Shown piece by piece: positions 1-29,519 of a DNA stretch of 64,000 bases (position 1 is the stretch's first letter; every line of letters starts with the position of its first letter). The notes beneath the pieces are model-generated. The model was given only the letters and a program-made list of their open reading frames with translations. It was not told the DNA's origin and did not search any database. The translations under genes and the position numbers were made by a program. Where the stretch lies: the NCBI GenBank assembly GCA_029667085.1, contig JARUHJ010000004.1:248001-312000 (forward strand), written 5' to 3'. The stretch comes from Deltaproteobacteria bacterium IMCC39524 (GTDB lineage: Bacteria > Desulfobacterota > Desulfuromonadia > Desulfuromonadales > BM103).

Positions 1-3000
1 TCGAGTTGTAGAAGGTCGTCGTGTTGTTGGGCAGGTTGACCCCGTTGCCGTTGTGATCACCAACCTCGTAGGACGACTTGCCGGCATTGTAGGGATGACA
101 GAAATTGCAGGCGTCCGTCTGGCCGAGACCGAGACCTGCAGCGTTCATCAATACATCCATATGCCTGGTGTGCATGCCCGCATCATTGTCTGGGTCGGCC
201 TTTAGACCTTGAGGCCAGTAGTTTCCGCTAGCACCGTGACAGCTGTCGCAACTGCCGCCACCTGCTGCCACAACATCAGTACCTGCTACAGTCGCCAGGT
301 TAAAAGTCGAAGCCGGGAAGTCATGAGTCCCATCAGCGGTCGTGGCGCCGTTGTGACAATCGGTACAGCCTGAACGCCCACCGATATCGTGCTCATTTGC
401 CAAGACGCCACTATTATTCATGGTGATAAAGCCGTCACCGTGAAGCGTGCTTCCGGCTTCAATTGCTTTCCAGTCGTTGCTGCCGCTGGTCCAGGGGTAC
501 TCAGAAACGGTGGTGCCACCAAGAACGTGACAGGCGTAACAGTCGAAGCCGAGGTTGATCGGTCCCGGATTGTGAGTGCCGGAAGAACCACGGGTTTGAT
601 TTTCCTCATGACTTGTCCCTGCGCGCCAGCCGCTGCCGTCACTACCAGTCGCCCAATAGCCGTGACAACCGGCACACTGCAGGTTACCAGCTGTGGTATC
701 GCTATTTTCGTGCCAGGTACGAGACCAGTCACCGCCGTCAAAGTGACAGCTTGACAGGGTACCGTTTGGTGAACAGGTCGGCTTGGCCGCATCGGCGTAA
801 TTAACCTCCGCTGCAAAATTGATCACGGCGTTGGTCGCCGAGTTGTAGGTCATGCCCCAATTACCATCTGCGTGCGCGGTGGCCGGACTGGTTGGAACAG
901 CGCTGTGACAGGTTTCACAGTCGCCCGTGGAACCGCCACCGTTGTAGAGGAAGTTGTCGTCGTGAGTCACTCCTGAAACCACCGGTACTTCATCGTGCAG
1001 ACCGGTTTGCGCCAGGTAGTTGTTGCCCGAGGCGCGCCAGTTGTTACCACCAACGTAAGAACCTGAATGGCATTCGGTGCAGTCTACAACGGTTCCGCTA
1101 TTCCAAAGCGTACCGCTCGGGCTTGAAGACGCATGACAGTCGTTGGTACAGGACTGGTCCCAACCGCTGTTGCTGGCGGGAGCAGTGATTGCACCGCTGA
1201 AATCGGCATTGCTGTCGATATGAGTGCCAACGTTTGCCGCCGTATGACACTCATTACAGCTGCCCGGCACGTAGGTGGTGTTGTTGATGTGCGCGGTATG
1301 TGCGGTAGTTACCGTAGGAGTCGCAGCGTGGCACATAATACAGCTATCCGGATAATCCGTACCCCATGCATAAGGCGCTATGGCCGGAGTCGTGCCGAGA
1401 TCGCCGTTACCGGCGTTGTGGCAATCGTTGGTGCCGCAGGAGTTGGTTACGCCCATGTCGTAGGTATTCAGAGTGCCATCCATGACGCTGCCGCCGGCAA
1501 CTTCATAGGTGCCGTCGAGATGGCCTACAGAAGGTGGAGTGGGAGTGATATCCCACTCGGTTGCAGTGTCATGACAGTCGGCACAACCAATGTCACGGCC
1601 TAATCCGTTAACCTGGGAGTCGGTGTGCGCGGTGTGTGCGGGATCAGTCGGGACATCGAGATGGCACATGATACAGGCACTGCTGGCAGGGGTATCGTAC
1701 CAGCCGTACACATCGTCCTGGGTGGTCTTATTGAAATGGCAATCGACCGTGGAGCAGGTGTCGTTGCCGGCTGCTTCAAGGCTGGAGTAGACACCATCGT
1801 CCGGGACACCATTTAGCGTATTGGTTTTTGTTGTGTCCCACAACTTGTACATACTGTTGACTTCAGCAGGCAGGCCATTTTTATGGTTTGCACCGCCAGG
1901 GGTGTCGTGACAGAAAGAGCAAAGATGTTCTTGCTTGACCTGAGAAAAACCGTTGCCGTTATCGGTCAGCAGGCCAGTGAGATCCTCTGAGTAAACAGCC
2001 TGCGCCAGGGCAGTCATATGAACCAAATGCTTTCCAGCAAGTTTTTCATCGCTGTTATCTACGGCGCCGTTAGGCCAAAAACCGCTTTTATTTGTGCCAC
2101 CGCCGCCGTTATAGCCGCCATGACAGCTGGAGCATTCAACGACCGGGGTATCACCAATTACGGTTGCAGTGGCCACTCCCGTTGTGGTTTCGGGGAAGGT
2201 GTGATTGGTGTCACCGTTGATGCCGCCAGCGTTGTGACACCCGGCCGCACTGTTTGTACAACCGACCCGTCCAGTATCAAAAGTGATGGTGGTATTAGCC
2301 GGCTGATTCATGGTGAGAGAGCCGTCACCATGATTGCTGGTTTCACCTGCGTTGGCATTCCAGTCGTCAGTTGTAACTGCGTAAGCGTAACCAGAAGCCG
2401 AACCGATCGCATGGCAATCAGTACAGGGGTAGGACAGCGTGCCTATTTTACTGTGGACATCCCCTTTACTTGGGGTTTCAAGGTGTGGGGTTACGCCGGC
2501 ATTCCAGCCACTGGCAAAGTCACCGTGACAGTTGGCGCACTCGCTGCCATCCGAGGCATAGACACTTGTATCCCACTTATAGGTCCAGGTCGTGCCGACG
2601 CTGTGACAGCTGGTTGTACAATCGTTGGTCGCCGAGGTGTAAGTCAGAAGCGATGCGTTGTAGGTAATTGCGGCATTGTATTGCAGGGTGCCGTTCATAT
2701 GATCAGCAGGCGTCACTGTCGGCGATGTGGTGTGACAGTCGACACAGCCGGCAACGGGACCGAAGTTGCCACCATCGAAATTATCGTCATGGGCGTTATT
2801 GGTTACCGTCAACGTTGTCGTGTTGTCATGTAGACCCGAGGTCGGGTTGACGGAAGTGTTCGTAGTATTTGTGTGGCACTGGATACAGCCGGCACTGGTC
2901 GCCGGGATGGCAACATCCCAGTCCGGAGAACCGGTGGCGTGGCAGCCGCCGGTATCAATACCACCTGAGCAGGTGTTGGCGTCATTGTAGGTCATGCCGG

Positions 3001-6000
3001 AGCGGACTACGTCGCGGACACCACTACCTTCGTCGAAGCCGGCCTCGTCCTGCGAGGCAAGGGCCGCACCGTTGTAGATTGCTCCTCTGTTGCCGCCGGT
3101 CTTATCATTGATATGGGCCAGCGGACCGGCGATGGAGTTGCCGCTATTGTACTCGCCACCTGTGATGTCATGACACTCGCCACAACCCTTGTTCTTGTCA
3201 AAATGCTCGTTATGGCTGGCGCTGATGGATTCGGCGCGACCATCGAGAACGCTGCCATGATTATTGTTGTCCGTGCCGGTCGGGCTGCCCGAATAATAGT
3301 GACACTTATCGCAATTCAGGCCGTCGTTGTCGATAGGTACACGCAAGGTAACCCCATCGGTCGGGTTCGCGACATCGTCCCAGGTGTACCAGAAGCCATC
3401 GCTGGTATCGGTATTGTGACAGGCGGTCGCACAGGTCCACTTGTTACCGGTCCCTTTAGCGAAGCCGACGGTATTGTTCAGAATAGAACGACGTCCTGCC
3501 GCGTTGCTATGATTCAGTGTGTTGAGCTGATCGTCAACCGTGCTGTAGGTGTAGCTGCCAGCACCTGTGTGACAATTCTCACAATCAGTCTGGTCATCTG
3601 TATCAACGGCAGTTCTTGTATTCTCGGTGTGCACGAGATGGGCCGCCGTGGTCGGCGGATAACCGTGACATTGATCACAGGCGGTCCCTGCGGCAACCAG
3701 GAAGGCCTCGGTTGCGTCGTTGTGCACCGTGTGACAGCTTGACAGGCAGTTGGTATTGAGTTGATCGGCACTGCCGCCGTGGCTGCCGCCGGTATTCTCG
3801 ATGTTATTGTGTGCAACCCCTCGAGATGAGCTGTGACAAACCGCACAAAGGTCATCGGCGTTGTCTTCCAGAGTGCCAGTGCCGTCAACACCGTTGCCGC
3901 CGTCATCCTCATCAAAGGAATCGGTGGTAAAATCCGACAAGTTGGTAAAGTAAACAAGAGACCCTGCAAAGCTGCCGGTAGAGGGATCATGCAAGTTTTG
4001 ATCGCTCGGACTACGCCAGATCATCTGTAGGTTTTGATCCCCGTGGACATTATGACAGGCGACACACTTCTTGCCCTTGTGTGTAACGATATCCTGATTG
4101 TTGGCCTGAGCTGCGGCATGGGTCGGATGATTACGGGTTCCGGCTGGCGATGTGCCATGGCAGTTCAGACAGTACAGATCTTCGTTTGTAAGATATGGAC
4201 TTGTGAAGAAGTTATCAGTGCGTAATAACAAGTCCTCTTCTAAATCGGAAGCAGTATAATTTTTGCCATCCCAGTGATAGGGACTATCTGCAAGGTGACA
4301 GGTCGTACAGTCCGCGTTGGCAGCGGGGTTACCTGTAGCGGCATTATAAACTCCAGCGCTTGTCGGACGATTGTGCCCGCTCGTTCTTGCATTGGTTAAG
4401 TGATCAGGTTCATGACTACCTGACGAATTGTTAAAAATGGCACCACAATCAAGACCGGCATGACAGGTTGCGCAATCTTTGCCTGAAGCCGGATTTCCCC
4501 ACGTCGGTTGGAGTGCGCCAGCGGCTTGATCTTCAGTATCCCAGCCGTGGCATCTATCACAGATATTCTGTGGATAAACGCTGCCCCATGACGTTTCATC
4601 TCCTACTGACAGGGTGTTATAGGTCACAACACCATCAACATGGCCAGCGTGGGTACCGAGATCCGAATTGGTATCGTGGCACTCAGCACAAGTCAAACGT
4701 GGGCCATTGGCGTCGGAGCTATGCCGTTCATGCGAACCGGTGAAGACCGTGGTCTGGTCAGCGTGACAAGAGTTACAGGTCATAGCGCCTGTCACATCCC
4801 AGTCGGCTGAGTAAATGGTGTCGTCCGGATTGTGGCAGTAAACCGAGCAGGTGCCGGTCACTGAATTGTAGCTATTCTTGTCAACGGCTAGCGCGTTGTA
4901 TAGAACTGTGGAATTGAAGACGACATTCTGCTCGCCGTTAACATGCAAACCACCGGAGGCAGCACGGTGATCTGTTGCGTTGGCGGAGAGGGTATCTTTA
5001 TCAATGGCAGTGTTTTCATGGCAGACACCGCAGTCATAATTAAAAGTCGCAGGGTTGATGTGGGCGGCGTGAGCGGCCGTGTTGTTCTTCGAGGCCATAC
5101 TCCCGACATCATTGCCATGACAAACCTGACAACGAGGGACCCCTGTGCCACCGATGAGAATCGAATTGTAGCCAGCTGTACCACCGGTACCGGCCCAGGC
5201 CGGAGTGTTGGCAGCACCGGCACCCTGGTTCCAGTCGCGAACCACAGTGGAGCCATCATCGCTGAGGCGCGGAGCACCGGCAGAGTGACAATAGACACTG
5301 TTGCACACTGCAGAGCCATCATTATAAGTCGGGGTCAAATGGCTCACTTCGAGCGCGTCCAGGCCGGTTGCTATGCCAGAGAAGGGAACATCGCGGAAGG
5401 TTGCGGAATTGGAGATTGGGTCAATCTTGTGACCGCCGCTCGGGGTGCTGGCGTCGACGCCGTGGCAAAGCTTACAGTTTTCAAGCCCGCTGTTACCATA
5501 GTAATACCAATTTTCGGAACCTGGCACTGGCGTAACGGCATCCGATTTCAGATCGCGACCAGCGTGGGTCTTGTGGGCAGTCGTAGCTTCATCCTTATAA
5601 TGACCCGAGTTATCTAGGTAATTATACCCAGTTGGGAAGTTAGTGACACTGGCATTATAGTAGGCATAACCACCGTCCCTGGAATCATATTCTGCAGCAC
5701 GGTCACCGCGGGAGGACTTGTAGGGCGGGAAACCGTGACAATCTCCGCACGTGGCGGCACTCGCATCTAGGTTAAAACTAAAGACGGCATCATTATGCTT
5801 GTGGCAATCCGTACAAGCCTGGTTGCCGTCAAATTTGTGCTGAGAATGGAGTTTTCCTACTCCACCGACTGGCCCATCATCCTGGATGTCGCCGTGGCAC
5901 GTTTCGCAGAAACCATTAGCCGAGCCAAGTGCATCATCAGACCAACTATCTCGGGTTGGTGTTGTATCGAGAAAAACCGGAAAATCAACAGGTGTCACGA

Positions 6001-7096
6001 TATCGTAAATCCGTGAAAGAGCTGTTGAGACGACGACATTGTAAGTCGGTACGGAGGAAGGGCTCACGTCAGCGAGAACATAGGCACTCGGGGTACCGTT
6101 GTTGTAGGAATGGCCGCCATGGCAATCCAGGCAGCCGATGTTATTACTAGAGCCAGGATCGCCGTGCATCTTGTAGGTATGGCAAGACTGACAGAGGTTG
6201 GAACGCTTCTGAGCGGTCTCGTTGCGGTCGACACCTAAGCTGCTCGGCCCGTCGCTGCGCAACAACGTGCCATCACTTTCGGGGCTTGGGACCAGACCAG
6301 GACCATCAGATGTCGATGCGTCAGAATCGACAAAGTGTGGACTGTGGCAGCTCGAACAACTGACACCACCTTCGATCAACACGACACTGTTGGTGTAGGG
6401 AGCAGCTGAATTGTAATTTTGAATCCCCGCAATATTGTAGGCGGGATTAGCAGAAGTGAGTGAGGTAAGTTCTGTCGAATTCATGACAGGGTGAGTCATC
6501 AGAGCATTATAGCCAGGAACAGCACCAAGAGTTTGGGTGAAATCACTATGGCAGGCCTCACACAATTCGTTCTCAGTCATGGGGTTTAAGTTGTCAGCAG
6601 ACAAGCGCAGCAGCTTAGGATTGGTGGTAATATCACCATGAGGGTCATGACAACGAGTGCAGGTCACCTTGCCAGTTGAGACATTATACTTGCTGTACAT
6701 ATTAGGGTACAGAGTGCGATTTGGCTCCCTAGATCCCGCAGCGGAGTTGTAAGTGGTCGAAATCGCCCAGTGATGTGACGTTTGAGCTCCAGCACCCACG
6801 TTGTTGCCATGGGCATTACTAGCGTCACCTGCATCAAAGTGTGACGTTGCAGTGGCAGGGACATTAGCCGGACCCGTCGAATTGTAGCGACTTCCGGCAT
6901 TCATGGGTGTGTCAAGTTTATTATTTTCGTCATGGCACCTGAAGCAGACGTTCTGGCCCGCCAATTCGTTGAGCGTCCCGCCAGACAGATGGCATTCATT
7001 ACAATTAAAAAAGTGTGCATTTTCTCCACCCATCGACAAAGACGGAAGGAACATAATGATTGCCAAGGTCAGCACAACGGACAATTTAACTTTCAT
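1..7096 (-). CDS. Giant secreted multiheme c-type cytochrome, C-terminus beyond the window
   Basis: This is one uninterrupted reading frame from an ATG at 7096 (AGGAG eight bases upstream) to the left edge, 2365 residues without a stop. A Sec signal peptide (MKVKLSVVLTLAIIMFLPSL, then SMGG) leads directly into the first heme site CNECH. I count 42 CXXCH motifs and 11 wider ones (five CX3CH, three CX4CH, one CX6CH, two CX8CH), all in one frame, so at least 53 hemes. The wider motifs alternate with CXXCH sites, as in the CxxxxCH/CxxCH cytochrome family of Geobacter. Between hemes there are many short Y-N-S/A-A/T segments and Gly/Asn/Thr-rich linkers. It is predicted to be exported and to act as a long electron wire in the periplasm or outside the cell. 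No membrane anchor is visible, but the C-terminus is missing. Family membership is firm; partner and location are inference. Confidence 0.93.
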   Translation of the reverse strand, partial: MKVKLSVVLTLAIIMFLPSLSMGGENAHFFNCNECHLSGGTLNELAGQNVCFRCHDENNKLDTPMNAGSRYNSTGPANVPATATSHFDAGDASNAHGNNVGAGAQTSHHWAISTTYNSAAGSREPNRTLYPNMYSKYNVSTGKVTCTRCHDPHGDITTNPKLLRLSADNLNPMTENELCEACHSDFTQTLGAVPGYNALMTHPVMNSTELTSLTSANPAYNIAGIQNYNSAAPYTNSVVLIEGGVSCSSCHSPHFVDSDASTSDGPGLVPSPESDGTLLRSDGPSSLGVDRNETAQKRSNLCQSCHTYKMHGDPGSSNNIGCLDCHGGHSYNNGTPSAYVLADVSPSSVPTYNVVVSTALSRIYDIVTPVDFPVFLDTTPTRDSWSDDALGSANGFCETCHGDIQDDGPVGGVGKLHSQHKFDGNQACTDCHKHNDAVFSFNLDASAATCGDCHGFPPYKSSRGDRAAEYDSRDGGYAYYNASVTNFPTGYNYLDNSGHYKDEATTAHKTHAGRDLKSDAVTPVPGSENWYYYGNSGLENCKLCHGVDASTPSGGHKIDPISNSATFRDVPFSGIATGLDALEVSHLTPTYNDGSAVCNSVYCHSAGAPRLSDDGSTVVRDWNQGAGAANTPAWAGTGGTAGYNSILIGGTGVPRCQVCHGNDVGSMASKNNTAAHAAHINPATFNYDCGVCHENTAIDKDTLSANATDHRAASGGLHVNGEQNVVFNSTVLYNALAVDKNSYNSVTGTCSVYCHNPDDTIYSADWDVTGAMTCNSCHADQTTVFTGSHERHSSDANGPRLTCAECHDTNSDLGTHAGHVDGVVTYNTLSVGDETSWGSVYPQNICDRCHGWDTEDQAAGALQPTWGNPASGKDCATCHAGLDCGAIFNNSSGSHEPDHLTNARTSGHNRPTSAGVYNAATGNPAANADCTTCHLADSPYHWDGKNYTASDLEEDLLLRTDNFFTSPYLTNEDLYCLNCHGTSPAGTRNHPTHAAAQANNQDIVTHKGKKCVACHNVHGDQNLQMIWRSPSDQNLHDPSTGSFAGSLVYFTNLSDFTTDSFDEDDGGNGVDGTGTLEDNADDLCAVCHSSSRGVAHNNIENTGGSHGGSADQLNTNCLSSCHTVHNDATEAFLVAAGTACDQCHGYPPTTAAHLVHTENTRTAVDTDDQTDCENCHTGAGSYTYSTVDDQLNTLNHSNAAGRRSILNNTVGFAKGTGNKWTCATACHNTDTSDGFWYTWDDVANPTDGVTLRVPIDNDGLNCDKCHYYSGSPTGTDNNNHGSVLDGRAESISASHNEHFDKNKGCGECHDITGGEYNSGNSIAGPLAHINDKTGGNRGAIYNGAALASQDEAGFDEGSGVRDVVRSGMTYNDANTCSGGIDTGGCHATGSPDWDVAIPATSAGCIQCHTNTTNTSVNPTSGLHDNTTTLTVTNNAHDDNFDGGNFGPVAGCVDCHTTSPTVTPADHMNGTLQYNAAITYNASLLTYTSATNDCTTSCHSVGTTWTYKWDTSVYASDGSECANCHGDFASGWNAGVTPHLETPSKGDVHSKIGTLSYPCTDCHAIGSASGYAYAVTTDDWNANAGETSNHGDGSLTMNQPANTTITFDTGRVGCTNSAAGCHNAGGINGDTNHTFPETTTGVATATVIGDTPVVECSSCHGGYNGGGGTNKSGFWPNGAVDNSDEKLAGKHLVHMTALAQAVYSEDLTGLLTDNGNGFSQVKQEHLCSFCHDTPGGANHKNGLPAEVNSMYKLWDTTKTNTLNGVPDDGVYSSLEAAGNDTCSTVDCHFNKTTQDDVYGWYDTPASSACIMCHLDVPTDPAHTAHTDSQVNGLGRDIGCADCHDTATEWDITPTPPSVGHLDGTYEVAGGSVMDGTLNTYDMGVTNSCGTNDCHNAGNGDLGTTPAIAPYAWGTDYPDSCIMCHAATPTVTTAHTAHINNTTYVPGSCNECHTAANVGTHIDSNADFSGAITAPASNSGWDQSCTNDCHASSSPSGTLWNSGTVVDCTECHSGSYVGGNNWRASGNNYLAQTGLHDEVPVVSGVTHDDNFLYNGGGSTGDCETCHSAVPTSPATAHADGNWGMTYNSATNAVINFAAEVNYADAAKPTCSPNGTLSSCHFDGGDWSRTWHENSDTTAGNLQCAGCHGYWATGSDGSGWRAGTSHEENQTRGSSGTHNPGPINLGFDCYACHVLGGTTVSEYPWTSGSNDWKAIEAGSTLHGDGFITMNNSGVLANEHDIGGRSGCTDCHNGATTADGTHDFPASTFNLATVAGTDVVAAGGGSCDSCHGASGNYWPQGLKADPDNDAGMHTRHMDVLMNAAGLGLGQTDACNFCHPYNAGKSSYEVGDHNGNGVNLPNNTTTFYNS

Positions 7097-7236
7097 GGTC
7101 TACTCCTAAAGTAAAACATTTGCACTTATTTATTTCGAATATCCCTCTGCCACGAGTATCAACCTCAAGCAGATTGCCAACCGCACCTGGTCTCATGGGA
7201 GACAATCTGGGCCAGGACACAAAAACCAAAGGGGCA

Positions 7237-7253
7237 AGCATGAGAGTCATGCT
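7237..7253. promoter_or_regulatory. 17-bp perfect dyad upstream of the giant cytochrome gene
   Basis: AGCATGA-GAG-TCATGCT is a perfect 7-bp inverted repeat with a 3-base centre, 141 bp upstream of the start codon. Just downstream on the coding strand, GTCTC-CCAT-GAGAC and a longer CAGATTG/CAATCTG pairing could form alternative stems. This may be an operator or a structured 5' leader. No known binding-site family was recognised. Confidence 0.35.
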
Positions 7254-7586
7254 AGGCCAAATAACAACAGGTAACTGTGAAACCACTTTAAACACGTAAA
7301 AAACCTTACTGAACTGTTCCCATTGGAGCCTTCCACGAAGGATTAAAAAAGCTAGGAATCCAAGGGGTTTAGATGTTTATATGTGTACCCACGTAACCCA
7401 AAAGAGGTTTTTGTCATTTCACTTAATTGCAACGAAGATACCGCTTTCGCTAAAAACAGTCGTTTAATCAACTTTACATAAATTATAATCTCGTAATTAA
7501 CGTAACTAATTAATTAGAGCTAAATAAATAATTTTAATTTAGAGGGTCAATAAAGTAAAATCTGGCTATGGATTAACCTAGAAACG

Positions 7587-7660
7587 CGGAGTTCACCTGA
7601 TTGTTTTTTGAATTTCTCTGTGAACTCTGTGTCTCTCTGTTGAGAGGTTTTCTTTAGACG
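7587..7660. repeat. Dispersed inverted repeat, AACGCAGAG family, copy 1
   Basis: The left arm contains CGCGGAGTTCACC and the right arm CTGTGAACTCTGTGTC, with an 8-bp perfect core GAGTTCAC/GTGAACTC. Read on the minus strand the right arm gives the ACAGAGAGACACAGAG pattern. It shares style and sequence with the repeats at 16097, 21854 and 52716. Confidence 0.55.
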
Positions 7661-7750
7661 ACCTTCACTTGAGCGAAGTGGACAACCAGATTAATTTTTT
7701 GAGTCATAGAACCGGAGCTTGAGATGGAGGGGGACAAAAATGTAAAACCC

Positions 7751-7781
7751 AAAAAGGCCCCAACCGTTGATGACTGGGGCC
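7751..7781 (-). terminator. Rho-independent terminator after the tetraheme cytochrome gene
   Basis: On the minus strand, a stem GGCCCC/GGGGCC with a 14-base loop is followed at once by TTTTT. It lies about 200 bp downstream of the stop codon of the tetraheme gene, so the NHL-tetraheme transcript probably ends here and the giant cytochrome gene is transcribed separately. Confidence 0.75.
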
Positions 7782-7978
7782 GACAGGAATGTTTACTGAG
7801 CGCTTATCCTAATTTCAGCTAGCTGTTAATTATTGCTCACCGCTCAACCTGAAGGGTCTGTCTGTAAAATCAAAAATCGTTAAAATCTTCAGCGCAGCAT
7901 AGCTCTGAAAAGTTTCGGACGACCCCGGAAAGAGATCGCCCTATAGCTATTCAACGAAATGGAACCATGAAGTTATAA

Positions 7979-8755
7979 CTATTTAATATGGCAAGCCAGA
8001 CAAAGAGCACTGCCGGTGTTAGGAGTTATCAGAAAGGGTGAATAGTCCTCGTTACCACCATTGAGCGGATCGAAATTAACGTGCGGATCGTGACAGGAAG
8101 AGCACTCCACATTAAGAGCTCCGGTAAAGAACCGAACCCCCTGACCTACCGCTAACCCCGGATCCCGAAGCGTATTAAACTTCGGTTGACCTGACGAATA
8201 TTCTGGAGAGGCCATGACATCGGTATAACTAAAAGAGAACGGGTGATCATCTGTAAAGTCACCTGTATTTCCGGAGGTAGCGATACCAGGAGAACCACCA
8301 ATACGGGCCCCTGGAACACCGAAAAAATCAGTAATTTCGTTGTTAATTACACCCCCTGGGCCCAAAATTGGAGCTGTACGATCATTCGGCTCATTGAGCA
8401 CATGGTTGACAGAGAGACTGCCATCATGACAGGACAGGCAAAGCATCGACTCAGTATTTGGCGGACGACCTGCGGGCAAGCCTCTAAGATTCGACGACAG
8501 AGAAGCGCTGTTGTAGTGTTTCCAAGTCGCGGAGGTGGGGTTACCCCGGTTCCACAAAGGAGCATCCAGAGTTCCGCCATGAGGGGTATGACAAAACACA
8601 CAGATCGCATCTTCGTCATGGTTGTATTGACCAGTATCAGGACTGCTGAGGGAAAGGTTATGCGATCCCCACCTTACACCAGCCGGCCCTCTTACCCCCC
8701 AAGCCACGCTGGAAGTAAAGAATATCAGGCAAAAAACAACAACTAAACGTTTCAT
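7979..8755 (-). CDS. Secreted tetraheme c-type cytochrome
   Basis: 258 residues. The signal peptide is roughly residues 1-20 (hydrophobic VVVFCLIFFTSSVAWG). There are four CXXCH heme sites: CVFCH (52-56), CLSCH, CSSCH and CLACH at the extreme C-terminus, with extra histidines (SHN, TPH, DPH) as possible axial ligands. It follows the NHL-repeat gene by 31 bp and has its own AGGA ribosome site, so the two are probably co-transcribed. The layout (about 240 mature residues, four hemes, ICVFCHTPH start) resembles small outer-surface tetraheme cytochromes of Geobacter such as OmcE, which polymerise into filaments. That likeness is by architecture only and is not demonstrated here. The role is predicted to be extracytoplasmic electron transfer. 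Confidence 0.88.
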   Translation of the reverse strand: MKRLVVVFCLIFFTSSVAWGVRGPAGVRWGSHNLSLSSPDTGQYNHDEDAICVFCHTPHGGTLDAPLWNRGNPTSATWKHYNSASLSSNLRGLPAGRPPNTESMLCLSCHDGSLSVNHVLNEPNDRTAPILGPGGVINNEITDFFGVPGARIGGSPGIATSGNTGDFTDDHPFSFSYTDVMASPEYSSGQPKFNTLRDPGLAVGQGVRFFTGALNVECSSCHDPHVNFDPLNGGNEDYSPFLITPNTGSALCLACHIK

Positions 8756-11918: not shown

Positions 11919-13292
11919 CTAACTCAAAAAACCGAATTTCTTCATCCGGTAACGAAAAGCATCAATACCAAGATTCAGTTTTTTCGCCGCCTTCGACTGA
12001 TTCCCCTCAGCGATTTCAAGCGACTGGCGGATCAGCTCCCGCTCGACATCCTCGATATCTATCCCTTCCGGGGGGATACGCAGGCTCATCGGCCCGGAGG
12101 CATCGCCACCGGCTTTCGAGATCAATTCCTGGGGGAGATGTTCCAGCATCAGCGTCTCTTCGTTTTCGAGAATAATCGCACGCTCAATAATATTCCTCAA
12201 CTCACGCACGTTACCAGGCCACTCATACTCTTCAAGGAATTTGCGGGCCATCTTGGAGACGCCGGCGACGGTTTTGCCGAACTCCCGGTTGTAGTGGCGA
12301 ATAAAGAAATCAACAAGGGTCATAATGTCGTCGCGTCGTTCGCGCAACGGCGGCAGGTAGATGGGAATGACCTGCAAACGATAGTAGAGGTCGTTGCGAA
12401 AGGTTTTATCCTCGATCTTCTTGAGCAGCTCCTGATTGGTCGCGGAGACGATACGGACATCAACCGGAATCTCTTTGTTGCCTCCGACCCGGCGAACGGT
12501 CCGTTCTTCGAGGACGCGCAGCAACTTGGCCTGCATGCCCACTTCCATATCTCCGATCTCATCGAGAAAGAGGGTGCCGCCGTCAGTCATCTCAAAGAGA
12601 CCTTGCTTCTGGCTCTTGGCGTCAGTGAAAGCCCCTTTTTCATGCCCCATCAATTCGCTTTCAAGCAAAGTCTCTGGAACCGCGGCACAATTGATCGCCA
12701 TAAAAGGCTTGTCTTTACGCGCGCTCTCCATATGAATAGCGCGGGCGATCAACTCCTTGCCGGTGCCGCTCTCGCCCTGAATCAACACGGTGCTGGCATC
12801 GCTTTTGGCGACCTTGCGAACCATGTCGAGGACCTGCTTCATGTGACGGCTTTCACCGATGATGTTATCGATGCCGAACTTGCTTTCCTGGGCGGAACGG
12901 AGGTGAGCAACTTCCTTACGCAACTGCCGGGTCTCAAGAGCCTTCTTGACAATGATGGACAACTCATCGAGGTTGAACGGCTTGTTGATATAGTCATGCG
13001 CTCCAAGCCGCATCGCCTTGACGGCAGTTTCAAGCACACCAAGAGCCGTGACCATAACAACGATAATTTCGTCATCAAGCTCCTTGACCTTCTCCAGCAC
13101 CTGCAAGCCATCCATGCCAGGGAGTTGGATATCAAGCAGCATCAACGCGGGAGCTTCTTCCTGGACCTGCCTGATCGCTTCCTCGCCGCTGGCAGCGGTA
13201 ATGACGTCGTAACCCTGCTTTTTCAGGGACTGCTCCAGGGACCAGCGGATCAGGTGCTCATCATCAACAACTAATATTCTCGTATTACGCAC
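11919..13292 (-). CDS. NtrC-family sigma54-dependent response regulator
   Basis: 457 residues, with three domains. The receiver is residues 1-120, with acidic pocket DD at 10-11 and phosphoacceptor D54 in LLDIQLPG. The AAA+ sigma54-interaction domain is about 140-375, with Walker A GESGTGKE and the sigma54-contact loop ExGAFTDA. A Fis-type helix-turn-helix lies at the C-terminus (GNQSKAAKKLNLGIDAFRYR). It starts 2 bp after the kinase gene ends, so kinase and regulator are a cognate pair. It activates sigma54-RNA polymerase when phosphorylated. The nearest candidate target is the promoter at 11789-11805, and the 36-heme cytochrome promoter at 29520 is another. Function is certain at family level; the targets are inference. 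Confidence 0.95.
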   Translation of the reverse strand: MRNTRILVVDDEHLIRWSLEQSLKKQGYDVITAASGEEAIRQVQEEAPALMLLDIQLPGMDGLQVLEKVKELDDEIIVVMVTALGVLETAVKAMRLGAHDYINKPFNLDELSIIVKKALETRQLRKEVAHLRSAQESKFGIDNIIGESRHMKQVLDMVRKVAKSDASTVLIQGESGTGKELIARAIHMESARKDKPFMAINCAAVPETLLESELMGHEKGAFTDAKSQKQGLFEMTDGGTLFLDEIGDMEVGMQAKLLRVLEERTVRRVGGNKEIPVDVRIVSATNQELLKKIEDKTFRNDLYYRLQVIPIYLPPLRERRDDIMTLVDFFIRHYNREFGKTVAGVSKMARKFLEEYEWPGNVRELRNIIERAIILENEETLMLEHLPQELISKAGGDASGPMSLRIPPEGIDIEDVERELIRQSLEIAEGNQSKAAKKLNLGIDAFRYRMKKFGFLS

Positions 13293-13294
13293 AA

Positions 13295-14785
13295 TTATTC
13301 CTCGTTCATCTCCAAGACAGCTTCTTTGCTGACCGGTAAGTCTATAACAACCCTGGTCCCTTCGCCGACTCGGCTACGGACCTCAATCGTTCCACCCTGC
13401 TGCTCAACAAGTTGCCTGCAGATCGCCAGACCGAGCCCTGTGCCCTGGGTTTTGGTTGTAAAAAACGGGGTAAAAATCCTCTCCATATCTTCTGGCTTGA
13501 TACCGGGACCTGAGTCACCGATCAACACCCGTACGGACTGCTTGCCCTGCTCACCGACCAGGTCGGTCTGCAGCAAAAGAGTGCCACCTTCTTTCATCGC
13601 CTGGATCGCATTTATGATGATATTAAAAAATACCTGCTGAAGCTGCTTGCCGTCAACCCAAACCGGCGGTAAATTACGGGTAAATTCCTTGGTTTGGTGC
13701 ACATTTTTGGCTTCCGGGTGCTGACTGACGAAAAACATCGTCTTTTTGAGGAGATCGTTGGTGTCAACATAATCCAGAGTCGGCTTGCCGGGGCGGCCAA
13801 AGAAAAGCAGATCTGTCGCCGCCTTATCGAGCCTGGAAATTTGCTCAAGAACTTTGTCAATGACCTCGCGCCGAGGGTCCTCTGCGGAGAAATCGTCAGC
13901 AAGAACGGTAATGGCGCCCTTGATGCCAGCCAGAGGGTTCTTGATCTCGTGCGCAATACCCGCCGACATTTCACCGACCGAGGCCAGACGATCGGCCCGC
14001 TCCATCTGCTGGTAATGGTAGTCCTGCAATTCATCGTTGGCCAGGCTCAGACGATCGACCATGGAATTAAAGTTGACCATCAGAGCACTGACTTCGTCAT
14101 TACTCTGCGGCTCCAGCCTGACCGTCAGATCCCCCTCTTCAACCTGGGCCATTTTGGCCGACATCGTCTGCAGGGGCTGCCGCACAAAGCGATTAAAAAT
14201 CAGCGAGATACCCCAGGTCAGCAAAAGCACAATCGTCAGCATGGTGAGGCCAAAAAGTTGTGACGTCTGCAGCAACTGGGCTTCCATCTCTTCGAGCGAC
14301 AGGTCAAGATTCAAAACACCGATCACGCGACGACCGGAGCCGTGACAAGGAACGCAGCCCTGCTCGGTATAAATCGGCTTGACGACCCCTATGACATCCT
14401 TGCCACTCGCCCCGCGGAACGTATTGTGACTCTGGCCCTGCAGGAAGGTCGCGAGGTCATGCGGGTTGACCCTGCGGCCAATTTCATTCGGTTCCGAGGA
14501 TTTAAGGACACGGCCATCGGGATGAAAAATGCGCACGCCATCCAGACGCTCGTCACTCCCAACCATTTCCAGGATAGTCTGAACATCGCGGTTATTGCCG
14601 GTACTCATCGAACTAAAAATGGCTCTTTCGATAACAGACATCATCAGGTCTGCGGTCCGCAGGCTGGAGGTGGTAATGTGGGTATGTTCTCGACGGATGT
14701 GGAACAGGGTGACACTGCCGATCGCAAACATAAAGAGCAGAAAGGAAAGTATGACGATCCGGCCGATCAGGCTCTTGAAAAACAT
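13295..14785 (-). CDS. Membrane histidine kinase with a heme c motif in its periplasmic sensor domain
   Basis: 496 residues. TM1 is about 8-30, followed by a periplasmic domain 31-175, TM2 about 176-197, HAMP 200-250, HisKA with H279 in AGIAHEIKNPL, and HATPase with DSGPGI and GTGLGL boxes. The periplasmic domain has CVPCHG (C144, C147, H148) just after a PAS-like strand (VIGVVKPIYTEQG), so heme c is probably attached there. Heme c sensor domains are known in Geobacter signalling proteins, where they respond to redox potential or small ligands. It is upstream of and nearly contiguous with the NtrC-type regulator. The sensed signal cannot be read from sequence. Confidence 0.9.
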   Translation of the reverse strand: MFFKSLIGRIVILSFLLFMFAIGSVTLFHIRREHTHITTSSLRTADLMMSVIERAIFSSMSTGNNRDVQTILEMVGSDERLDGVRIFHPDGRVLKSSEPNEIGRRVNPHDLATFLQGQSHNTFRGASGKDVIGVVKPIYTEQGCVPCHGSGRRVIGVLNLDLSLEEMEAQLLQTSQLFGLTMLTIVLLLTWGISLIFNRFVRQPLQTMSAKMAQVEEGDLTVRLEPQSNDEVSALMVNFNSMVDRLSLANDELQDYHYQQMERADRLASVGEMSAGIAHEIKNPLAGIKGAITVLADDFSAEDPRREVIDKVLEQISRLDKAATDLLFFGRPGKPTLDYVDTNDLLKKTMFFVSQHPEAKNVHQTKEFTRNLPPVWVDGKQLQQVFFNIIINAIQAMKEGGTLLLQTDLVGEQGKQSVRVLIGDSGPGIKPEDMERIFTPFFTTKTQGTGLGLAICRQLVEQQGGTIEVRSRVGEGTRVVIDLPVSKEAVLEMNEE

Positions 14786-26548: not shown

Positions 26549-29404
26549 TCACTTAATATGACAGGGATCGCAATTTTCAACCCCGAAGGCCTTCCCTCCG
26601 TTGTGGCAGGCGCCACAGGATTGTCCAATTTCCATGTCATCCATGGTGGCCACCTTGTTTGCGCCGCGGCGTGCCTGGAACAGGCGAGGGTGACAATCGT
26701 CACAGCCGAAATTGTCAAGATGGATCGCGTGCGAAAAGATCGTCTTGCCAAAGGCTTGGTAAGCAACATCGCCGGAATGGCAACTGGTGCAATCTTCCTT
26801 GACGCTGAATGCATCCCCCCCGTTATGGCAGGCCCCGCACGAGGCACCGGATTCCATCGCCTGCATCCCCACCTGGTTGCTATTCGCTTTAGCCCTGAAC
26901 AGATCGGGATGACATTCACTGCAGCCGAACATCTCCGTGTGAATACTATGGCTGAAAGGAGCGACGCCAACATTCTTCGTTTGTATCGCCACGTCAACTG
27001 CCTTTTGGTGGCAAGTGATGCAATCCCCTGCAACACCGAAAGCCGTACTGCCATCATGACATGAGCCGCAAGACTCTCCACTCTCCATCTTCTTCATGCC
27101 AACCTGGGTGCTGTTGGCTTTGGCCTCGAAAATATCCGGGTGGCATTCATCACAGCCGAAGTCTTCGGTATGCACACCGTGGCTAAAGACAATCTCGCCC
27201 ACCGTACTTTGCATGGCAACATCCACCGCCCCGCTATGACAACTGCTGCAATCGCCCTTGACACCAAACGCTGTCCTTCCATCATGACAGGCCCCGCAGG
27301 ACGCACCGTCCTCCATCTTCTTCATGCCGACCTGGTTACTGTTGGCCTGGGCCTTAAAGATGTCCGGATGACATTCGTCGCAGGCGAACATTCTGCCGTG
27401 CTCCGCGTGACTGAAGGGGATGGTCCCGACATTTTTTGTCTGAATTGCCACATCTACGGAACTGGCATGGCATTCGGCACAATCGCCAGTGACGCTGAAA
27501 GCGTCTTCTCCGTTGTGACAGGCCCCGCAGGACGCGCCGTCTTCCATTTTTTTCATCCCGACCTGGTTGCTGTTGGCTTTGGCCCTGAACACATCGGGGT
27601 GGCATTCGCCACAAGAGAAGTTTTCGGTGTGATTTTTATGGCTGAAAAGAATGGACCAGACGCCACTCTTGATAGCGACATTCTTCGTGTAGGTCAGCGC
27701 GCCGGTATGACAGGTGGTGCAAGCCTCACCGACACCGAAAGCCGAGTCGCCATCATGGCAGGCACCGCAGGATTCGCCATCCTCCATCCTGGTCATGCCG
27801 ACCTGGTTGCTGTTGGCCTGGGCGACAAAAAGATCCGGATGACATTCTCCACAGCCGAACATCTCCGTGTGGACGTCATGACTGAAAGGAACAGCGCCGA
27901 CATCTTGGGCCTGAATCGCCACGTCAGCGGCGTTGCTGTGACAGGTCACACAGTCACCTGCGACACCAAACGCGGTATCGCCATCATGGCAGGTGCCGCA
28001 GGATTCTCCGGTTTCCATCTTTTTCATACCGACCGGGTTGCTGTTGGCTTTGGCTTTAAAGGTGTCCGGATGACATTCGTCACAACCGAACATCTCGATA
28101 TGTGCATCGTGGCTGAAAACAATTGCTCCCACCGTACTCTGGATGGGGATATCCTCTGCGCCCTGATGACAACTTATGCAATCGGCTTTGACACTGAAGG
28201 CATTATCGCCATCATGGCAGGCACCGCAGGACTCTCCGCTTTCCATCTTTTTCATGCCGACCTGGGTGCTGTTAGCCTTGGCCCTGAAGGTCTCCGGATG
28301 ACATTCGTCGCAACCGAACATTTCGGTGTGGACGACATGGCTGAAGACTATCCCACCCACCGTACTCTGTATCGGGATATCTTTCGTGTAGGTAAATTCA
28401 CCAAGATGGCAGGTGGTGCAATCTTCGCCAACACCAAAAGCGGTGTCACCATCGTGACAGGCACCACACGACTCACCGGCTTCCATACGCTGCATACCCA
28501 CCTGGTTGCTATTGGCTTTGGCGACAAAAATATCCGGGTGACATTCTGCACAACCTAACATTTCGGTGTGAATTGTATGGCTGAAGGGAACAGCGTTGAC
28601 ATCTTTGGCCTGTATGGCCATATCAGCAGCATTGCTGTGACAGGTCACACAGTCGCCGCTGACGCTGAAGGCGCTATCGCCGTCATGGCAGGCCCCGCAG
28701 GACTCTCCGTCTTCCATCTTCTTCATGCCGACCTGGTTACTGTTAGCCTTGGCTTTGAAGATATCCGAATGGCACTCATCGCAGCCGAAGGCATCGGTGT
28801 GCACATCATGACTGAAGAGGATTTCGCCGACCGGGCTCTGCATGGCGATCGCCCCGGCACTCGTATGACAATTACTGCAGTCACTTTTGACGCTAAAGGC
28901 ACTGTCTCCGTCATGGCAGGCGCCACACGACTCGCCCTCTTCCATTTTTTTCATACCAACCCGGTTACTGTTGCGTTCTGGCACAAACAGGTCGGAGTGA
29001 CATTCATCGCAGCCAAACATGTCGGCGTGAACGTCGTGACTGAACATGACTTTCTCGGCAATACCGTAGTTAATTTCCACATCACCGGCGTGGCAGGTGG
29101 TACAGTCTTCACCAACGCCGAAAGCTTTGGTGTCATTATGACAAAAACCGCAGGATTTACCGCTTTCCATCTCCGCCATGGTGAAAGCAGGATTCTTCTT
29201 GGTGACAATGTGAAAGGCTTCATTGTGACAGGTCGGGCAATTCTTGCCGATAGACTCCATCTCCATATGGGCAAAGTGGCTAAACTCTACCTTGCCTACA
29301 GAGTCAGTTTGCAGGTAGACTTTATCTTTGATCCAACGACCGTACAAAACGGAAGGGAGAGCCACCATCATAAGAACTGCGAGTATCATCCAACGCCGTG
29401 TCAT
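26549..29404 (-). CDS. 36-heme c-type cytochrome made of 12 triheme c7-like repeats
   Basis: 951 residues from ATG 29404 (GGAGG eight bases upstream; a more distal in-frame start lacks a site). The signal peptide is about 1-21 (WMILAVLMMVALPSVLYG). Twelve tandem repeats of about 75 residues follow, each with three CXXCH sites in the order C-D/A/G-E-CH, C-G-A-CH, C-x-T/S-CH and a conserved FSHxxHTEMFGC start, AKANSNQVGMKKME middle and DGDxAF. This gives 36 hemes, ending CDPCHIK. The layout is that of c7 polymers such as the 12-heme GSU1996 of Geobacter, but longer. It is a predicted periplasmic or surface electron wire and heme capacitor. Its promoter region contains a sigma54-like element. 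Confidence 0.95.
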   Translation of the reverse strand: MTRRWMILAVLMMVALPSVLYGRWIKDKVYLQTDSVGKVEFSHFAHMEMESIGKNCPTCHNEAFHIVTKKNPAFTMAEMESGKSCGFCHNDTKAFGVGEDCTTCHAGDVEINYGIAEKVMFSHDVHADMFGCDECHSDLFVPERNSNRVGMKKMEEGESCGACHDGDSAFSVKSDCSNCHTSAGAIAMQSPVGEILFSHDVHTDAFGCDECHSDIFKAKANSNQVGMKKMEDGESCGACHDGDSAFSVSGDCVTCHSNAADMAIQAKDVNAVPFSHTIHTEMLGCAECHPDIFVAKANSNQVGMQRMEAGESCGACHDGDTAFGVGEDCTTCHLGEFTYTKDIPIQSTVGGIVFSHVVHTEMFGCDECHPETFRAKANSTQVGMKKMESGESCGACHDGDNAFSVKADCISCHQGAEDIPIQSTVGAIVFSHDAHIEMFGCDECHPDTFKAKANSNPVGMKKMETGESCGTCHDGDTAFGVAGDCVTCHSNAADVAIQAQDVGAVPFSHDVHTEMFGCGECHPDLFVAQANSNQVGMTRMEDGESCGACHDGDSAFGVGEACTTCHTGALTYTKNVAIKSGVWSILFSHKNHTENFSCGECHPDVFRAKANSNQVGMKKMEDGASCGACHNGEDAFSVTGDCAECHASSVDVAIQTKNVGTIPFSHAEHGRMFACDECHPDIFKAQANSNQVGMKKMEDGASCGACHDGRTAFGVKGDCSSCHSGAVDVAMQSTVGEIVFSHGVHTEDFGCDECHPDIFEAKANSTQVGMKKMESGESCGSCHDGSTAFGVAGDCITCHQKAVDVAIQTKNVGVAPFSHSIHTEMFGCSECHPDLFRAKANSNQVGMQAMESGASCGACHNGGDAFSVKEDCTSCHSGDVAYQAFGKTIFSHAIHLDNFGCDDCHPRLFQARRGANKVATMDDMEIGQSCGACHNGGKAFGVENCDPCHIK

Positions 29405-29519
29405 AAATCTTCCTCCATCAGCAAGTTTGGGCAACATTATACTGATTTTACCTGTCCGACCAACCTTTTAATTTAACATCACCAAACGGCAAACGTCTGC
29501 ATAACGTCGTGGTTTAAAA

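Follow-up and report, generated by a model that had tools for sequence, protein, structure and literature searches.

A 3,903-residue candidate multiheme cytochrome and its family of fused and split relatives

Introduction

Very large cytochromes have been described in electroactive bacteria and in archaea. According to the accessible part of PMC2996986, the maximum per cytochrome in three Geobacter genomes is 34-37 hemes. The corresponding part of PMC12133095 describes a cytochrome with 86 motifs in Desulfuromonas acetexigens, a number that its authors call the highest reported so far for any single cytochrome of electroactive bacteria, and the expression of giant cytochromes by this species on electrodes and iron oxides. 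In Geoalkalibacter ferrihydriticus, the protein Ga0056053_03448 carries 24 hemes and two N-terminal fibronectin III domains and is encoded downstream of a 38-heme OmcV homolog (PMC12016550, available portion). Among archaea, the portions at hand report 113 hemes in a Methanoperedens MHC/S-layer fusion (PMC7082337) and MHC types of 20-80 hemes in ANME archaea (PMC9012536).

In this study, we analyzed a stretch of 64,000 nucleotides (hereafter the window; C4:248001-312000 of genome G000, 3.78 Mb in 19 contigs) from a bacterium of the Desulfuromonadales type, in which an initial annotation had pointed out a giant cytochrome gene cut off by the window edge. We completed this gene, here called A, and compared its product with a paralog, with homologs in other genomes and with the systems above.

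Gene, domains and heme sites

The minus-strand frame 7096..2 contains no stop codon up to the window edge. The initial annotation had described it as an open frame with a signal peptide and a ribosome site and with its C-terminus beyond the window, all of which was borne out (Table 1). Extension to the left placed the stop at C4:243385, 4,615 bases (4.6 kb) outside the window, so that A has 3,903 residues, the remaining 1,538 of which (spacer and tail) lie outside the window. The AGGAG sequence is also kept in the paralog B and in two orthologs of G005. A has an apo mass of 409 kDa and contains 139 Cys and 169 His. Hydropathy reached its maximum at the N-terminus (2.09 vs 1.11 elsewhere) and revealed no second hydrophobic helix in the whole protein; neither a lipobox nor another anchor was seen in A, whose signal peptide was judged by eye.

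Table 1. Features of the giant cytochrome locus (window positions unless marked C4)
Feature	Position	Strand	Remark
Giant cytochrome A, residues 1-2365	2..7096	-	whole gene C4:255096-243385
ATG start of A	7096	-	read from sequence
Ribosome-binding site AGGAG, six bases before ATG of A	7103..7107	-	read from sequence
Sec-type signal peptide of A, residues 1 to ~23	7028..7096	-	hydropathy, judged by eye
Long-loop heme-type site CX8CH, residues 1376-1386	2939..2971	-	loop 4 to 10 in 12/12 homologs
Long-loop site CX6CH, residues 1613-1621	2234..2260	-	loop 2, 3, 4 or 6 in the 10 homologs with the site
Long-loop site CX8CH, residues 2108-2118	743..775	-	loop 2 to 10 in 12/12 homologs
Terminator-like hairpin between tetraheme gene and A	7756..7781	-	10 pairs, 7 G-C, T-run
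Secreted tetraheme cytochrome, 258 aa, paired CXXCH	7979..8755	-	homolog in 7/22 giant neighbourhoods
NHL/FG-GAP/PEGA protein, 968 aa	8787..11693	-	homolog in 7/22 giant neighbourhoods, one an 81-aa piece

We found 61 CX2-4CH motifs in A (52 CX2, 5 CX3 and 4 CX4), against a mean of 0.72 and a maximum of 4 in 200 shuffled versions of the protein. Five conserved CX6-10CH sites and one conserved CX46CH site come on top of these, giving up to 67 candidate hemes. The 53 hemes counted in the initial annotation correspond to the 53 CH dipeptides of the window part and stand if its three longer-loop sites (CX8, CX6, CX8) are included, whereas CX2-4CH motifs alone amount to 50 (42 CX2, 5 CX3 and 3 CX4). 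The motifs do run along the whole window part, and a heme every 40-50 residues fits the array (median motif spacing 46.5 residues). However, neither description holds for the whole protein, in which residues 2392-3049, outside the window, form a spacer of 657 residues with zero heme motifs. Thus, A consists of an array up to residue 2392 (signal peptide, 51 CX2-4CH motifs and three long-loop sites), the spacer, and a tail from residue 3049 with 10 CX2-4CH motifs and three long-loop sites (13 in all), whose end is strongly conserved.

In the spacer, Pfam assigned one fibronectin III domain to A (residues 2933-3029) and two to B (best 2412-2501); the near end of A's spacer matched only a related family, below that family's cut-off. 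Other Pfam matches of A were Cytochrome_C7, MtrC/MtrF-like II/IV, Cytochrom_c3_2 and paired CXXCH, with Cytochrome_C7 and related domains above their cut-offs. For an arbitrary 166-aa piece of locus L065, all Pfam matches were below cut-off. Taken together, the many CXnCH motifs, the signal peptide and the Pfam cytochrome domains identify A as a predicted exported multiheme c-type cytochrome. The initial annotation had also proposed a search with a CxxxxCH/CxxCH family model, and TIGR01904 of NCBIfam (GSu CxxxxCH/CxxCH domain, cut-off 27) indeed recognized both A (50.2 bits) and B (68.1 bits); all of its 14 matches in the genome fell within these two proteins. On the other hand, neither A nor B matched the 75-residue c7 triheme repeat TIGR04257 in the NCBIfam search at E 0.01, and its 21 genome matches lay outside both. 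A second large cytochrome, which is of a known kind and has 962 aa and 36 heme motifs in 12 such c7 triheme units (TIGR04257), is encoded 19 kb from A (window 26549-29437, minus strand). AlphaFold models were unusable, with mean pLDDT values of 37.1 for the tail of the IMCC39146 ortholog (17 alignment rows) and 28.4 for residues 24-1000 of A (8 rows).

The long-loop sites were followed through the homologs, with loop length measured from the CH back to the closest preceding Cys that leaves a gap of two residues or more, whether or not that Cys was itself aligned. By this measure, site 30 ranged from CX4CH to CX10CH, sites 36 and 48 from CX2CH up to CX6CH and CX10CH, and site 57 was CX6-12CH among the 12 aligned homologs. 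Site 60 was CX7CH in all 12, and the last site had 37-54 residues between its cysteines in 11 of 11, the twelfth sequence being incomplete there. The varying loop length of sites 30, 36 and 48 favors the view that these are heme sites whose loop drifts. Long-spaced heme motifs are familiar from OmcZ and MccA. The CH at residue 3575, which is part of CHNCH and kept in only 4 of the 12 homologs, was rejected as a heme site. A CXXCH-only count would overlook 15 of the 67 candidate sites in A (5 CX3, 4 CX4, 5 CX6-10 and 1 CX46); such counting was used in two surveys, as described in the accessible parts of PMC7082337 and PMC9012536.

Paralog, conservation and distribution

The paralog B (3,849 aa, 62 CX2-4CH motifs; C4:230042-218493) lies 13 kb from A. 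The two proteins are 47.7% identical end to end, with each of the 68 CH of A aligned to a CH of B. An alignment was built from 12 of 14 homologs, two shorter than 3,000 aa being left out; the G014 copy is incomplete at its 5' end and the G023 copy at its 3' end. Almost every CH of A (67 of 68) was kept in at least 10 of these 12 homologs, and 46 were kept in all 12. Among the other 101 His of A, 60 were kept in at least 10 homologs, which is near the number that would be needed as second heme ligands.

Homologs from G043 and C14-02 differed with dS 0.21, dN 0.040 and omega 0.19 over 3,604 codons, and omega was low in each part (array 0.16, spacer 0.31, tail 0.22). These data bear on whether A might be an artefact, that is, an assembly error or a frameshift merging separate cytochrome genes. 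In favor of such a merger, array and tail are separate adjacent genes in G033, G025 and G067, and two G050 copies are broken in two frames. However, it is practically refuted by the paralog B with the same full-length layout, by homologs in other genomes that run without a break for 3.1-4.1 kaa and by the low dN/dS values. The giant cytochrome of the initial annotation is thus a real one: these sequence comparisons demonstrate an intact gene, whose family is under purifying selection.

Residues 2380-3903 found a match at E 0.001 in 37 of the 78 genomes of the order (own included), many of them via the common tail only. A matching open frame of more than 3,000 aa was present in eight of the 78 (G000, G005, G014, G023, G035, G042, G043 and G058). 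Residues 24-1000 matched 23 of 136 genomes (own included) at E 1e-60, including only 4 of the 11 same-genus genomes. One genome, G001, listed as 100% complete, had no match to either query at these thresholds. This patchy distribution, seen even among same-genus genomes and with a complete genome lacking any match, argues that A is not a core respiratory part. A search with the single protein confirmed no named relatives; a contig scan with the alignment query detected 24 loci labelled Deltaproteobacteria, Desulfuromonadales, Desulfuromonadaceae, Desulfuromonas or Geobacter. Two intact orthologs are present in IMCC39146. In three of these 24 named loci (L045, L055 and L056), shorter tail-sharing proteins begin with what we take to be lipobox-like N-termini, which suggests a place at the outer surface.

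Fused and split forms

Three genomes, G033, G025 and G067, have a tetraheme gene (258, 279 and 286 aa, respectively, with 4 motifs each) followed by adjacent genes for an array (2,794, 2,717 and 2,706 aa; 75, 71 and 71 motifs) and a tail (1,702, 2,349 and 2,297 aa; 18, 24 and 24 motifs). The split arrays align to the N-terminal 1,500-2,000 residues of A with 27-30% identity, and the split tails align to A from residue 3278, 3401 or 3431 to 3895 with 37-41% identity. Each split tail starts with a heme-free stretch of 716-1,149 residues, in which Pfam (E 0.01) called fibronectin III in none of the three; only the heme-free layout is therefore common with A there. Since fused and split forms both lie behind the same tetraheme gene, it looks as if A were a two-gene unit of array and tail joined into one. 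Such joining of adjacent genes suggests that array and tail cooperate.

Other family members vary in size. G034 has three compact fused forms and G050 has one, with lengths of 2.6-2.75 kaa and 37 motifs. Next to this unbroken copy, G050 has two further copies of the compact 37-motif form (L070 and L071), in which the heme-free stretch is the place where the gene falls into two frames (27+10 and 28+10 motifs). An uncultured Geobacter bin (G078; L062-L064, the record behind L037) encodes three giants in tandem (3,814 aa with 63, 3,848 aa with 62 and 4,354 aa with 86 motifs), the last of which lacks a spacer and is related to A (38%) through its first 2,200 residues.

Gene neighbourhood

The tetraheme gene and the NHL/FG-GAP gene lie upstream of A within the window. 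Both products are probable partners of A, the NHL/FG-GAP/PEGA protein at the surface. By tblastn over 22 neighbourhood sequences, we detected the TPR lipoprotein in 7, the fused MFS/spermidine-synthase-like protein in 7 and, as a control, the response regulator of the window in 0; these frequencies, and those in Table 1, are not independent, since several of the neighbourhoods are incomplete, some come from one genome and that of L037 overlaps with the bin112 stretch. The response regulator is of the NtrC type and is encoded, together with a Cache/HAMP histidine kinase, just upstream of the NHL/FG-GAP gene (11919-14785, minus strand).

To the left of the window, two TPR lipoprotein genes (C4:241309-242730 and 216894-218267, plus strand) are convergent with A and B. 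Their products are 59% identical, and the A/B duplication takes in this gene as well as another small one (55%). The fused MFS/spermidine-synthase-like membrane protein is encoded at C4:230787-233348 (plus strand; L006). Between A and B (C4:235095-241269, plus strand) lie a carrier-protein-like gene, two adjacent amino-acid-adenylation-domain genes and a gene for a 508-aa membrane protein; these genes also occur beside the giants of G005. Upstream of B, a 109-aa frame (C4:230032-230361, minus strand) is similar to the NHL/FG-GAP protein at its N-terminus (37% over 79 aa) and is probably a truncated remnant now serving as B's leader. Of the two G005 orthologs, one has a leader like that of A and the other a leader like that of B.

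Terminator-like hairpins numbered 2 against 0.8 in shuffles and are consensus matches only. Riboswitch control of leaders is a Geobacter habit. For the leader of A it was rejected, as Rfam gave no match in window 6900-8000 at E 1; at gathering thresholds, the window, L005, L006 and L022 had no match.

Proposed function

Attachment of c-type hemes takes place in the periplasm. Electrons hop between bis-His hemes that are closely packed, and fast tunnelling has a limit of about 14 Å. We infer that 61-67 hemes would be attached to A in the periplasm, most of them with bis-His ligation. On the sequence evidence, A is fairly likely to be secreted and to serve extracellular electron transfer both as a conductor and as an electron store. 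The chain would reach the outer surface or matrix and receive electrons through an outer-membrane porin-cytochrome conduit; three MtrB/PioB-porin matches above cut-off, one of them strong, are present in the genome. Electrons could then hop along the array, which might conduct over tens of nanometres and store dozens of electrons, while the spacer would set apart a tail that may contact a mineral, an electrode, another cell or other matrix cytochromes. The tetraheme protein would probably be a carrier, and the NHL/FG-GAP protein an assembly or adhesion partner.

Unless the chain folds back on itself, the heme-free spacer of 657 residues would interrupt a continuous wire. A might instead be an extracellular capacitor and adhesin on a mineral or the matrix, buffering electrons without directional conduction, a role that would suit its very high heme load, its heme-free fibronectin-III spacer and the adjoining FG-GAP/NHL protein. 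It can be argued, however, that CH conservation (67 of 68 in at least 10 of 12 homologs) is tighter than plain storage needs, and we regard this role as unlikely. It is still less probable that A stays in the periplasm and bridges the inner membrane to the outer-membrane conduit; a chain spanning the periplasm was one idea of the initial annotation, the other being a single-molecule wire. Although its signal peptide with no lipobox or anchor seen would be compatible with such a bridge, the fibronectin III domain and the lipoprotein relatives of the tail speak for a surface location, and an inner-membrane anchor is absent as well.

Returning to the conductor, we put forward tentatively, as a possible but doubtful combination, that each chain of the family binds 66-67 hemes, including sites with freely drifting loops (CX2CH-CX10CH at one conserved position; CX6CH-CX12CH at another) and one terminal site with 37-54 residues between its cysteines, and that the fused chain would conduct as a single molecule over tens of nanometres, its array and contact tail being joined by a fibronectin-III hinge that does not conduct. 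In addition, drifting CXnCH loops offer a test of how strict c-heme attachment is.

Comparison with known systems

First, the heme number of A is no record. The initial annotation had placed it far above the usual Geobacter number, which is true of the three genomes with at most 34-37 hemes (PMC2996986, accessible part); however, 86 (PMC12133095) and 113 (PMC7082337) are already in print, as the available portions report. The high-molecular-weight cytochromes of D. acetexigens appear similar to A, compared by description only, in being giant multiheme proteins of a Desulfuromonas-type host; those of D. acetexigens are expressed during growth by extracellular electron transfer (PMC12133095, in part). 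An 86-motif homolog of A's array does exist, namely the 4,354-aa giant without a spacer in the uncultured Geobacter bin. The large archaeal MHCs, as far as described in the portions at hand of PMC7082337 and PMC9012536, share with A a very large single-chain heme array with a non-heme domain; in contrast, they have an S-layer domain and a terminal membrane helix, neither of which was found in A (Pfam E 0.01; hydropathy).

Second, long heme arrays are also a feature of the Geobacter c7 'nanowire_3heme' proteins (TIGR04257), which unlike A and B consist of regular 75-residue triheme repeats. The OmcS, OmcE and OmcZ nanowires have a proposed role in long-range conduction, as does A by analogy only, but they are built from small polymerising subunits (PMC9473688, available text), and neither A nor the tail profile had a PDB sequence match at E 0.1. 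With the A family, the question whether a single polypeptide, unpolymerised, can move electrons across tens of nanometres gains a concrete object of study.

Finally, A belongs to a definable, conserved family of giant putative electron carriers in sediment bacteria. Its members, whether fused or split, have heme sites, tail and the position of the spacer in common, and partner genes recur beside them. In the literature searched, which covered few subscription journals, we found no description of a fused array-tail family or of drifting heme loops; the architecture of the family and its homolog-variable inter-cysteine loop lengths apparently have not been described so far. The G. ferrihydriticus pair, judged from the description in the accessible part of PMC12016550, resembles the split form in having an array gene followed by a gene for a tail with fibronectin III and hemes, but distributes 38 + 24 hemes over two genes, whereas A is one fused chain.
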